Assembly (NCBI RefSeq): GCF_002093975.1
Contig: NZ_KZ084326.1
Span: 124,001 to 188,000 of the forward strand
Direction of reading: 5' to 3'
Length of the DNA: 64,000 nucleotides
Source: Thermoactinospora rubra
GTDB lineage: Bacteria > Actinomycetota > Actinomycetes > Streptosporangiales > Streptosporangiaceae
A program made the translations under genes and the position numbers. The notes under the pieces were generated by a model that saw only the letters and a program-made list of their open reading frames with translations, was not told the DNA's origin and did not search any database. Positions 1,284 to 4,904 of this stretch are shown here, in pieces (positions within the stretch are counted from its first letter, which is position 1; every line of letters begins with the position of its first letter).

Positions 1284-2189
1284 ATGGATCTGGCGTTATT
1301 GGCGATCGACGTGTCGATCATCGCCGGCTACGCCTACGCCGCCGGCGCGTGCCGGCGCCGGCAGCGTCGGGGCCGCTCGGTGCCCAATTCCTGGCACGGC
1401 GACCGGCTCGGGCCGTACGAGATCGCCTGCCTCGTGGGCGGACCCGACCATGTGGCCACGACGGCCGTCGTGCTGGCCACACGGAGCGGGCTGGTGCGTG
1501 CCGAACGCTCGGGCATCCTCCACCCCGTGGCGGGCGCGGCCTGCGATGATCCCGTCCGGCAGGCCGTCATCGACGCCGTCGCCGCCGTGCCCGGGGGCAG
1601 GCCGGTGGCGCAGGTCACCCGCGAGGTGGCCGCGGGACCCGCGGTGCAGAGGCTGCGCCACCAGCTGATCGGGCACGGCCTGCTCGTCCCCGACGGCGCC
1701 CTCGAACCGGCGCGCAGGGCGTGGGCGGCGCTGGTCGCCGTGACGGCGACCGTCGCCGCGTTCGCCGTCGCGTTCTCGGTGGCCCTCGTCGCCGGCCTGG
1801 TGACGTCGGCCGTCGACTCGCTGGCCACGGCGGTGATCGGCTGGGGTGTGGCCCTCCTCGGGACGCGCAGCTCACTGCGGTACGGCAGGGCGTTGCGGAG
1901 CGAGCTGAGCTGGCTGGGCCGCGACGAGCTGCGCATGCTCATGCGCGGCAAAGGCCGCCACCTGTCCGAGGAGGAGCGCGTGGCGCTCCACGGCGCGAAC
2001 GGCCTGCGGGACAGGGAGCTGCGCAGGGCGCTCAGGACCCGTAAGAGGGCCCGCAGATCCGTGGCCCGCACACGTGGAGCCTTGGCCCGCAGTTGCGGCA
2101 CCAGTAGCTGCGGCGGGGGCGGCTGCAGCAGCGGTTCTGGCGGGAGCAGCTGCGGTGGCGGCGGTGGCTGTGGTGGCGGCGGTGGCTGA
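1284..2189 (+). CDS. TIGR04222 domain membrane protein with Gly/Cys-rich C-terminal tail
   Basis: 301 residues. Residues 1-22 are a hydrophobic N-terminal segment. Residues about 40-70 carry the family motif GPYEIACLVGGPDHVATTAV typical of TIGR04222 proteins. Residues about 145-190 contain two further membrane helices, followed by an Arg-rich stretch. The last 32 residues (270-301) are nearly all Gly, Ser and Cys, with Cys at 271, 276, 281, 290 and 296 in CGGGG-type spacing. The start is ATG after a G-rich Shine-Dalgarno. The stop is 3 bp before a DUF692/MNIO gene, so the two are co-translated. Known MNIO enzymes oxidise Cys in peptide substrates; that this tail is the substrate is inference. 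Function of the TIGR04222 domain is not known to me. Confidence 0.85.
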   Translation: MDLALLAIDVSIIAGYAYAAGACRRRQRRGRSVPNSWHGDRLGPYEIACLVGGPDHVATTAVVLATRSGLVRAERSGILHPVAGAACDDPVRQAVIDAVAAVPGGRPVAQVTREVAAGPAVQRLRHQLIGHGLLVPDGALEPARRAWAALVAVTATVAAFAVAFSVALVAGLVTSAVDSLATAVIGWGVALLGTRSSLRYGRALRSELSWLGRDELRMLMRGKGRHLSEEERVALHGANGLRDRELRRALRTRKRARRSVARTRGALARSCGTSSCGGGGCSSGSGGSSCGGGGGCGGGGG

Positions 2190-2192
2190 GCC

Positions 2193-3017
2193 ATGGGAGC
2201 CGTCGGGACCGTGCCGCGGCTGGGCATCGGCATCGGCTGGCGCCCGGAGATCGACCTGACCGTCGAGCGCATGGCGGGCGTCGACTTCGTCGAGGTCATC
2301 GCGGAGAACGTCAGGCCGGACCGGCTGCCCGAGTCCCTGCGCGTGCTGCGCTCCCGCGGGATGCCGGTGATCCCGCACGGGGTGAGCCTGGGGATCGGCG
2401 GCGCCGACCTGCCCTCGCCCGAGCGCCTGGCCCGGCTGGCGGCCTGCGCGCGGGCGCTGGAGGCGCCGCTGGTGAGCGAGCACCTGGCGTTCGTCAGGGG
2501 CGGCGGCGTCGAGGCGGGCCACCTGCTGCCCGTGCCGCGCACCCGGGAGGCGCTGGACGTCGTCACCGAGAACGTCCGCCGTGCCCAGGAGCAGCTGCCG
2601 GTGCCGCTCGCGCTGGAGAACGTCGCCGCGCTCTTCGGCTGGCCGGACGACGAGCTGACCGACGCGGAGTTCCTGGGCGAGCTGGTCGAGCGGACCGGCG
2701 TGCTGCTGCTGGTGGACGTGGCGAACCTGTACACGAACCAGGTCAACCTCGGGCTGCCGGCCGTGGCGGCGCTCGACCGGCTGCCGCTGGAGCACCTGGC
2801 GTACGTCCACGTGGCCGGCGGGCACGAGCACGGCGGGATCTGGCACGACACGCACACCGCCGCGGTGCCGCCCGAGGTGCTGGAGCTGCTGGGCGAGCTG
2901 TGCGCGCGGGTGACGCCGCCCGGGGTGCTGCTGGAGTGGGACGACGACTACCCCGGCGACGCGGTCCTGGCCGGCCAGCTGGCGCGGGTCAGGGAGGTCG
3001 TCGCCGGTGGAGCGTGA
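2193..3017 (+). CDS. DUF692 family multinuclear non-haem iron oxidase (MNIO)
   Basis: 274-residue TIM-barrel protein of the DUF692/UPF0276 family. Characterised members (MbnB, TglH, ChrH) use two or three iron ions to oxidise cysteines in ribosomally made peptides. Candidate metal ligands are visible in the usual order: H62 in IPHGVSLG, E96-H97 in SEHLAF, E142 in LENVA, D175 in [11 protein letters not shown]206 and H211 in [10 protein letters not shown]219 and H221 in HDTHTAA, and E248 in LEWDDD. The length matches the family core. It sits 3 bp after the Cys-tailed membrane protein and overlaps the next gene by 11 bp, indicating one operon. The usual DUF2063 partner is absent and replaced by the small downstream protein. 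Confidence 0.9.
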
Positions 3018-3381
3018 CGAGGCGGCCAGGCGCCGCCTGGCGGAGGCGCAGGCGCGGCTGGTGGCGGCCCTCGTGGCGGGTGCCGAGGCTCCCGAGGGCT
3101 TCGACGCCGAGCGCCTTCGCGTCCAGGCGGCCAGCCTGATCGCCAAGCGGCGCGCCGTGGTCGCGCGCCTGCGGCCCGACGCGGCCGCGGCCGCCGGTCC
3201 CACCTTCGCCGCCGACTTCGCCGCCTACGCCGCCTCCCGCGCCACCCCGCCCGCCGGCTACCGCGCCGACGCCGCCGACTTCGCCGCCTGGCTGCAGGCC
3301 CAGGGCCGGATGCCGGACGCGCCCGCTCCGCGCGGGTGGCGGGCGGCGCTGGGCCGCTGGCGGGCGCGCTGGGGGCGGTGA
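3007..3381 (+). CDS. Small partner of the MNIO, SCO6045 C-terminal-like
   Basis: 124-residue soluble, Ala/Arg-rich helical protein starting at a GTG that overlaps the MNIO stop by 11 bp. It has an N-terminal coiled segment (residues 1-60) and a second block [20 protein letters not shown] followed by [14 protein letters not shown]. From memory this resembles the C-terminal extension found fused to DUF692 proteins such as S. coelicolor SCO6045; here it is a separate gene. Many MNIOs need a small partner protein that recruits the substrate, so a substrate-binding role is a reasonable inference. No catalytic residues are recognisable. Confidence 0.65.
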
Positions 3382-3428: not shown

Positions 3429-3455
3429 GGTTTAGCTGGGAAAAACCAGGAAACC
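3429..3455. promoter_or_regulatory. AT-richer interrupted palindrome, operator-like
   Basis: Symmetric arms GGTTT-N2-CTGG-N6-CCAG-N1-AAACC in the only A/T-rich stretch between the MNIO unit and the next gene. It ends about 10 bp before the likely start of the next gene, so it could be an operator or an RNA hairpin in its leader. Confidence 0.35.
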
Positions 3456-3464
3456 TTCAATGAC

Positions 3465-3977
3465 GTGGGAGGACTCCGGTGCGTCGACGGGTCATATCTG
3501 ACCGTGACGCCCGTGGCATGCCTGGACAGCGTCGGCGTGCCGTACGAGGTCACCCTCGAGCTCAGCAGGGACGGCTCGCCGTACGGGACGGTGGGGGAGC
3601 GGTGCGGCTGGTTCCTCGCGCGCCTGGCACGCGGCGTCGAGGACGCGCGCAGGCACGGGACCTGGCCGGACCCGGACGACAGGTTCCCCGAGGAGGGCTC
3701 CGACGGCGAGCTGTTCTGCTTGCGCTACCGCAGCCGCTCGGGCCGCATGGGCGGTGGCGAGCTGCGATGCCATCTGCGCACGATCCCCGTGTGGGTCCCG
3801 GCGGGGGAGTGGCGGCTGACCCGCAGGGCCTATCTGGAGGCCTGGGGCCCGCATGGCGCCGGCATGCGGGCCGTGCTGACCTCCGCCGAGCTGTCGGCCT
3901 TCCTCAGCGGCCTCGTCGAGGAGGCCGAGCTGTGCCTCGGCGGTAAGGATCTCGCGAGGGCCGCCTGGCCGAGCTGA
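3465..3977 (+). CDS. Hypothetical protein
   Basis: About 170 residues, unrecognised. The convincing part runs from VACLDSVGVPYEVTLELS to the end, with W/F/L-rich segments consistent with a folded cytoplasmic domain and no signal peptide or membrane helix. The start is uncertain. GTG at 3465 follows a weak AGGA; GTG at 3504 is also possible. A GGAGGA Shine-Dalgarno at 3468-3473 sits at the right distance from a GTG at 3479, but that GTG opens another frame whose product is a low-complexity Arg-rich peptide. The end overlaps a short tandem repeat. Separated from the MNIO genes by about 80 bp, so membership in that operon is doubtful. Confidence 0.5.
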   Translation: MGGLRCVDGSYLTVTPVACLDSVGVPYEVTLELSRDGSPYGTVGERCGWFLARLARGVEDARRHGTWPDPDDRFPEEGSDGELFCLRYRSRSGRMGGGELRCHLRTIPVWVPAGEWRLTRRAYLEAWGPHGAGMRAVLTSAELSAFLSGLVEEAELCLGGKDLARAAWPS

Positions 3978-4142: not shown

Positions 4143-4904
4143 GTGGGCCTGCGCGATCTGGTCTACCGGCTGTATGAGCGCCGGCTCGAGGCCAAGCTGT
4201 CCAAAGACAGCATCCCGCGGCACGTGGGCGTGATCATCGACGGCAACCGCCGCTGGGCCAGGGCGATGGGCCTGGACGACGTCAGCCGCGGGCACCGCAA
4301 GGGTGCCGACAAGATCTCCGACCTGCTCACCTGGTGCAGCGAGGCGGGCGTGGAGGTGGTCACCGTCTGGATGCTCTCCAGCGACAACCTCAACCGCCCG
4401 AAGGAGGAGCTCGACGCGCTGCTGCGGATCATCGAGGACGTGGTGCAGGAGCTCGTCGAGGAGGGGTGGCGCATCAGCCCCGTGGGGGCGCTCGACCTGC
4501 TGCCGGCCAGGACGGCGAATGTCCTGAAAACCGCGAAAGAGGCCACATCAGACCGTCCAGGGCTGATTGTGAACGTTGCGGTTGGGTATGGTGGAAGGCG
4601 TGAGATTGCCGATGCGGTGCGCTCACTCCTGCAGGAGCACGCCAGCAAGGGGGCGACCATCGAGGACCTCGTCGAGGTTCTCGATGTGGAGCACATCGCG
4701 GAGCATCTCTACACTCGCGGTCAGCCGGACCCCGACTTGCTCATCCGCACCAGCGGAGAGCAGCGGTTGTCCGGCTTTTTGCTGTGGCAGAGCGCCCACT
4801 CGGAGTTCTACTTCCACGAGGCCTACTGGCCCGACTTCAGGAAGGTTGATTTCCTGCGAGCGCTGCGCGACTACGCCGCGAGGCACCGGCGTTACGGCGC
4901 CTGA
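4143..4904 (+). CDS. Isoprenyl transferase (cis-prenyltransferase, UppS family)
   Basis: 253-residue cytosolic enzyme that condenses isopentenyl diphosphate with an allylic diphosphate in cis configuration, feeding the lipid carrier for cell-wall synthesis. Family signatures are intact: IDGNRRWAR with catalytic D33, GHRKGADK, SSDNLNRPKEEL, VGYGGRREI, and the C-terminal PDLLIRTSGEQRLSGFLLWQ block with the acidic metal site near SEFYF. GTG start with GGGAGG 5-10 bp upstream. The sequence looks more like the Rv1086-type short-chain enzyme than a decaprenyl synthase, but product length cannot be read here. Proximity to a PhoH2-type gene recalls the Rv1086-Rv1095 region of mycobacteria. Confidence 0.93.
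   Translation: MGLRDLVYRLYERRLEAKLSKDSIPRHVGVIIDGNRRWARAMGLDDVSRGHRKGADKISDLLTWCSEAGVEVVTVWMLSSDNLNRPKEELDALLRIIEDVVQELVEEGWRISPVGALDLLPARTANVLKTAKEATSDRPGLIVNVAVGYGGRREIADAVRSLLQEHASKGATIEDLVEVLDVEHIAEHLYTRGQPDPDLLIRTSGEQRLSGFLLWQSAHSEFYFHEAYWPDFRKVDFLRALRDYAARHRRYGA

Follow-up and report, generated by a model that had tools for sequence, protein, structure and literature searches.

A Cys-tailed TIGR04222 membrane protein as a candidate substrate of an adjacent MNIO and its small partner in Thermoactinospora rubra

MNIO enzymes, an iron-dependent family, are known as modifiers of Cys residues in peptides. In the 64,000-nt stretch of the Thermoactinospora rubra genome analyzed here (the window), a gene for such an enzyme directly follows the gene for a TIGR04222 membrane protein that ends in a tail of Gly, Ser, and Cys, raising the question of whether the enzyme acts on a tail that remains attached to a membrane protein and, if so, on which side of the membrane. 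A role for Cys-tailed TIGR04222 proteins as substrates of MNIOs is already a published prediction: in the accessible text of Antoine 2025 (PMC12452194), a subset of the family with a C-proximal Ser/Gly/Cys tail is proposed to be modified by MNIOs, with short PME-type 2 partners. The window locus, which combines a C-terminal Ser/Gly/Cys tail with an adjacent MNIO gene, fits this subset and is therefore one more member of the predicted kind. Like the TIGR04222/MNIO/PME-type 2 modules described there, which come mostly from Actinomycetota and whose membrane protein has no signal peptide, it comprises a tailed membrane protein, an adjacent MNIO, and a short non-DUF2063 partner. What is new here are the coupling counts, the single-frame arrangement of MNIO and partner in the genus g47, the joint absence from nine relatives, and the prediction of a cytoplasmic tail. 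The sequence-only reading of this DNA had named no characterized example of such a system, and this still holds, in that the literature searched, as far as its text was accessible, contains no experiment on any TIGR04222 protein.

The three-gene locus and its cysteine tail

The TIGR04222 ORF (positions 1284–2189, + strand) encodes a 301-aa membrane protein, the likely substrate, which matched the TIGR04222 profile at 76 bits (cut-off 43). Three base pairs (GCC) separate it from the ATG of the MNIO (DUF692) oxidase gene (2193–3017, +; 274 aa), and the GTG of the partner gene (3007–3381, +; 124 aa; PF26136 type) lies upstream of the MNIO stop, so that the two genes overlap by 11 bp. The layout described from the sequence alone was thus reproduced exactly with respect to gene positions, gap, overlap, and the number of tail Cys, and on ORF reading the spacing of the three genes leaves space for no additional gene between them. 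A search of the whole genome (8.2 Mb) returned one TIGR04222 match and one MNIO match. The locus occupies a slot that synteny shows to be bounded by two conserved + strand genes, one upstream (2–1216), which we take to encode phosphoenolpyruvate carboxykinase and which is a conserved neighbor outside the mechanism, and one downstream (4143–4904), presumably encoding an isoprenyl diphosphate synthase. Between the module and the latter gene sits a conserved ORF (3450–3977, +; start uncertain) with no family match in Pfam or NCBIfam; it is likely not part of the module, because four relatives from the same genus have kept it without the module.

The TIGR04222 protein contains Cys at residues 23, 49, and 87 and, in its tail, at residues 271, 276, 281, 290, and 296. 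The tail itself (residues 270–301; 2091–2186, +) consists only of Gly, Ser, and Cys, apart from one Thr, and is disordered in the AlphaFold2 model (pLDDT <50 at residues 270–296 and 298–301). A Pfam search with the protein gave no match, and hence no Buf1 (DUF2282) domain, and the motif EGKCG is absent from its sequence. In 94 of 99 MNIO-linked relatives, Cys accounted for 7.0% of residues in the tails versus 0.28% in the domains, figures that rest on the selection of these 94 for at least two tail Cys; at the domain rate, at least five Cys among 32 residues would be expected with p ~3e−8. The residue following a tail Cys in the same selected set was Gly in 407 cases, Ala in 43, and Ser in 25, and the most frequent Cys–Cys spacings were 4, 5, and 3 residues. 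At the DNA level, the Cys-Gly4 pattern occurs 73 times on both strands of the 8.2-Mb genome and the reversed pattern 188 times, which means that there is no enrichment of the pattern itself; when the whole-genome list was read, the window tail was the only site with three Cys-Gly4 matches inside 100 bp.

Coupling of enzyme, partner, and tail across genomes

In a census of 200 genomes of the window's order, TIGR04222 was present in 145 and an MNIO match in 90. Both were found in 87 genomes, MNIO only in 3, TIGR04222 only in 58, and neither in 52 (Fisher p = 1.7e−13, uncorrected for kinship). The 101 MNIO matches corresponded to 100 genes, one of which (in G055) was split into two pieces, and 91 genes were read; the nine excluded genes were six high-scoring ones (360–372 bits), one at a contig start (G136:C253), and two partial matches (G129:C4 and G172:C64). 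By Pfam search, one of the six high-scoring genes (L035) adjoins DUF2063. When a Cys-tailed neighbor was defined by two or more Cys among its 40 C-terminal residues, a distance of up to 3.5 kb, and the same strand, a Cys-tailed TIGR04222 and the partner were both present at 79 of the 91 MNIO genes and neither at nine. The three mixed loci all adjoin contig ends: in two, which had the partner without a Cys-tailed TIGR04222, the contig end lies 26 and 123 bases from the MNIO start, and in the third, which lacked the partner, it follows after 139 bases. The nine genes with no TIGR04222 or PF26136 partner nearby (L063, L065, L066, L069, L070, L078, L085, L120, and L139) are other MNIO systems. By these counts, the Cys-tailed membrane protein is tightly coupled to the enzyme and the partner in one module, as the sequence-only reading had supposed. 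The module lay between the window's two flanking genes in 55 of the 91 loci (summed synteny patterns).

The same reading had also proposed to check whether Cys-rich tails depend on the presence of the MNIO, and within the window's order this check passed: 93 of the 99 MNIO-linked TIGR04222 ORFs had at least two Cys in their last 40 residues, versus 2 of 17 ORFs from MNIO-free genomes among the matches listed. Five of the six exceptions were tail-less extra or half-length copies, and the sixth (L128) ended in a Gly/Ser tail that held only one Cys in this stretch. Among the matches listed, 11 of 27 unlinked TIGR04222 ORFs from genomes with an MNIO were Cys-tailed; since unlinked ORFs were drawn from these matches, weakly scoring ones are underrepresented, and at some fetched loci no ORF passed the threshold. 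Half-length TIGR04222 copies were also seen downstream of the MNIO at L077, L081, L092, L093, L105, and L132, those of L077 and L081 having a Cys tail of their own.

Outside the order, the association was only partly retained. MNIO was found in 15 of 296 phylum genomes (the window's own included), and ten loci beyond the order were read widely, seven from the genus g47 (L287–L293) and three others (L294, L295, and L296). Each of the latter three had a Cys-tailed neighbor and a separate partner-like frame. At the seven g47 loci, the TIGR04222 neighbor was Cys-tailed at one and tail-less at four, and there was no TIGR04222 within 14 kb at two; these loci are evidence against a strict MNIO–Cys-tail rule. 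A tree of 136 of the 143 domains, from which short ones had been dropped, gave on average approximately two contrasts for the link between MNIO and Cys tail, none against it, and four without difference, a result that is non-significant because the contrasts were too few.

The module is also absent as a unit. In the genus g1, 20 of the 25 genomes listed had both MNIO and TIGR04222 and five had neither. When ten relatives without either gene were searched for both flanking genes, tblastn of the slots of nine relatives revealed no TIGR04222, MNIO, or partner beyond chance-level matches (E ≥0.3, within a flanking gene), except that 20 residues resembling the partner remain in the slot of G009 (E = 4e−4); in G132, the flanking genes lie on separate contigs. 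By eye, the slot of four same-genus genomes contains a different sequence, with an amidohydrolase-like ORF.

Enzyme, partner, and predicted membrane topology

The assignment of the second gene as an MNIO was upheld. The protein matched PF05114 at 262.3 bits, well above the cut-off of 25, and reached the equivalog cut-off of none of the named NCBIfam subfamilies BufB, HvfB, ApyH, ChrH, and MbnB, the best being BufB (187.4 bits vs 310). Among structures, it matched 8hci/8hi7 (E = 4.6e−27) and 3BWW (E = 1.9e−20), and the H/D/E/N residues of the putative iron site were conserved in the alignment. In HvfB, the site-3 ligands are N175, D242, and H244, and variants of these are inactive, according to the accessible text of PMC13419390. 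Residues N178, D219, and H221 of the window protein align with these three ligands when mapped via the 8hci and 3BWW alignments, the 3BWW piece that holds the D and H being non-significant by itself, and all three are conserved at 99–100% in 80 sequences.

The small partner, for which an all-helical model was obtained, had no family match in the local copies of Pfam and NCBIfam; its protein database entry carries PF26136, “SCO6045-like C-terminal domain” protein is the name given there to several relatives, and its best database relatives are nearly all from Nonomuraea. As expected of a PME-type 2 partner, it is encoded downstream of the MNIO and has no DUF2063 signature, and a partner gene follows the MNIO in 81 of the 91 loci of the window's order. 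Comparison with four DUF2063-type frames by hhalign gave a probability of 32% over 46 columns, and fold searches with the partner returned no NGO1945/TglI-type chain. At all seven g47 loci, the MNIO and a PF26136-type domain occur in a single open frame. An artificial HvfB-HvfC fusion is reported in the accessible text of PMC13419390 to be an effective mimic of the HvfB-HvfC complex, and the natural MNIO-PF26136 fusion therefore fits an enzyme–partner pair. The near-universal presence of the partner in the window's order differs from the TIGR04222 clusters of Antoine 2025, in which, in the text available, PME-type 2 genes occur in at least 10% of clusters and many are partnerless (PMC12452194). 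A study of the genes under control of the HbpS-SenS-SenR redox system tabulates SCO6045, the namesake of the partner family (PMC4991794), which offers a lead on regulation.

The AlphaFold2 model of the TIGR04222 protein (mean pLDDT 84.0; alignment of 41 sequences) shows a helix at residues 2–30, a helical/wing domain at 44–134, helices at 137–169 and 176–205, and short helices up to residue 269. The N-terminus is a predicted transmembrane (TM) anchor (TM1, residues 3–22; 1290–1349, +; hydropathy 1.69), followed by Cys and the basic stretch RRRQRRGR. The soluble helical/wing domain (1413–1685, +) is predicted to be cytoplasmic from the model, the charge pattern, and the relation to DUF2207 proteins described below. 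It precedes a predicted TM2–TM3 hairpin (residues 145–196; 1716–1871, +) with hydropathies of 2.37 and 1.47 (family means 2.06 and 2.07), and a basic helical linker (residues 197–269; 1872–2090, +) with 22 Lys and Arg versus 8 Asp and Glu. Three TM helices would place the tail and the soluble domain on the same side of the membrane. Among 93 proteins, comprising the window protein and 92 linked proteins scoring >70, 82 had a net positive charge in the stretch behind TM1 and 76 in that behind TM3; for the TM2–TM3 loop, the charge was net positive in 17 and net negative in 25. The best structural matches of the model (m2d5dec2cdfa5), which were weak, were to GOLPH3 and, lower, Vps74.

Weak TIGR04222 matches in the phylum genomes include DUF2207 proteins. 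Three of these (L219, L220, and L223) have both DUF2207 domains by Pfam search and matched the TIGR04222 profile at 27–31 bits (E = 3.1e−6 to 2.5e−7), below the cut-off of 43. Read by eye, they run from a signal-peptide-like start through an N-terminal domain and a TM helix with basic residues to a soluble part, a TM hairpin, and a Gly/Ser tail, with one additional hydrophobic stretch flagged in L223. TIGR04222 therefore appears to be related to the C-terminal half of DUF2207 proteins, the similarity being significant although below the cut-off; the accessible parts of the literature examined do not state this relation, and those of Antoine 2025 (PMC12452194) do not mention DUF2207. Members of the DUF2207 family (PF09972/PF20990) such as SMU.243 share with the window protein the TM helix, soluble part, TM hairpin, and C-terminal Gly/Ser tail, and the Gly/Ser stretch of SMU.243 is predicted to lie inside the cell (PMC10457818, accessible text). 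They differ in having a large N-terminal domain behind the signal-peptide-like start, and the Gly/Ser tails of L219, L220, and L223 are Cys-free. We know of no MNIO link for DUF2207 proteins. On the basis of the charge pattern and this relation, the tail of the window protein is predicted to face the cytoplasm, contrary to the periplasmic position inferred in the available text of Antoine 2025 (PMC12452194). No export signal was found by eye in the MNIO or the partner, and the cytoplasmic side is thus where both would be.

Proposed tail modification and alternatives

Our main reading, to which we assign a probability of about 0.55, is that the MNIO and its partner oxidize Cys-Gly sites in the tail of the neighboring membrane protein, and that the tail stays attached and faces the cytoplasm. 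The active enzyme would consist of the MNIO and the PF26136 partner, and would meet the tail in the cytosol, the site of its synthesis and, according to the predicted topology, also its final location, so that export would be unnecessary before or after modification. Cys residues preceding Gly may be converted to 5-thiooxazole or a similar group, as in bufferins and captophorins, and, more speculatively, several such groups on a flexible tail might bind soft metal ions, e.g., copper, at the inner face. Both the 5-thiooxazole chemistry and copper are borrowed by analogy from these systems (PMC12668002, accessible text). Captophorins, bufferins, and oxazolin likewise involve an MNIO, a partner, and several Cys per chain (EGKCG repeats), and their 5-thiooxazoles bind copper (PMC12668002 and PMC13419390, as far as accessible). 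Bufferin and captophorin precursors carry a Sec signal peptide together with motifs such as EGKCG or DUF2282 (PMC12452194, accessible text), and their PME-type 1 partner, as described in the sources available, has DUF2063 and an RRE fold; the window tail instead belongs to a polytopic membrane protein. In TMcins, too, a membrane-embedded precursor undergoes RiPP biosynthesis, but these are antimicrobial peptides with a transmembrane helix that are processed by leader removal and disulfide formation, and no MNIO is named in the accessible text (PMC13252029).

Placement of the modified tail outside the membrane, as a tethered bufferin-like product of the kind proposed by Antoine 2025, is one alternative to this reading, and we regard it as unlikely. 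Besides the published periplasmic topology (PMC12452194, accessible text), it draws on the segment before the tail, which reaches a hydropathy of 1.5 in 32 of the 93 relatives and could form a fourth TM helix there, and on the stretch behind that segment, which is net negative in 83 of 91. The corresponding segment of the window protein, however, has a hydropathy of −0.64, its linker is strongly basic, and the model has three membrane-length helices; the apparent relation to DUF2207 proteins also argues against an external tail, and a polytopic protein would probably need to be modified ahead of tail export.

It is equally improbable, in our judgment, that the MNIO and partner act on a different target while the Cys tail serves as an unmodified thiol or metal ligand within the same membrane assembly. 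The tail-less TIGR04222 neighbors at four of the seven g47 loci would fit such an arrangement, as would L089 in the window's order, where a second TIGR04222 copy is tail-less. Against this, the genome has a single match for each family, the three genes leave no room for another gene between them, and the 79 loci with both components stand against nine with neither, the mixed cases occurring only at contig ends. Far less credible is the view that the Cys residues are a functionless by-product of drifting low-complexity sequence, even though the tail is encoded chiefly by GGC, AGC, GGT, and TGC codons, which are separated by one or two steps. Gly/Ser tails from MNIO-free genomes (only seven tails) contained 1.8% Cys and 11.4% Asp, versus 10% Cys and 4.6% Asp in the 94 linked tails selected for at least two Cys, and the unselected comparison given above (93 of 99 vs 2 of 17) points the same way. 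Moreover, the window domain forms a long branch with at most 39% identity to every other row of the tree, and yet the five tail Cys persist.

Within the preferred reading of a cytoplasmic, enzyme-modified tail, a more specific picture can be drawn, which is tentative and more doubtful than its parent. The tail would be a thiooxazole-bearing Cys-Gly brush, a membrane-tethered and never-released RiPP-type product on the cytoplasmic face, which would have arisen when a DUF2207-type membrane scaffold acquired MNIO sites in its Gly/Ser tail, and it might act as an inner-membrane copper trap or sensor. If a resident membrane protein does have its tail modified by an MNIO, many actinobacteria would use RiPP-type modification as a routine step of protein maturation, and the predicted inner-face topology would shift the plausible function from an exported chelator to a cytosolic metal trap.
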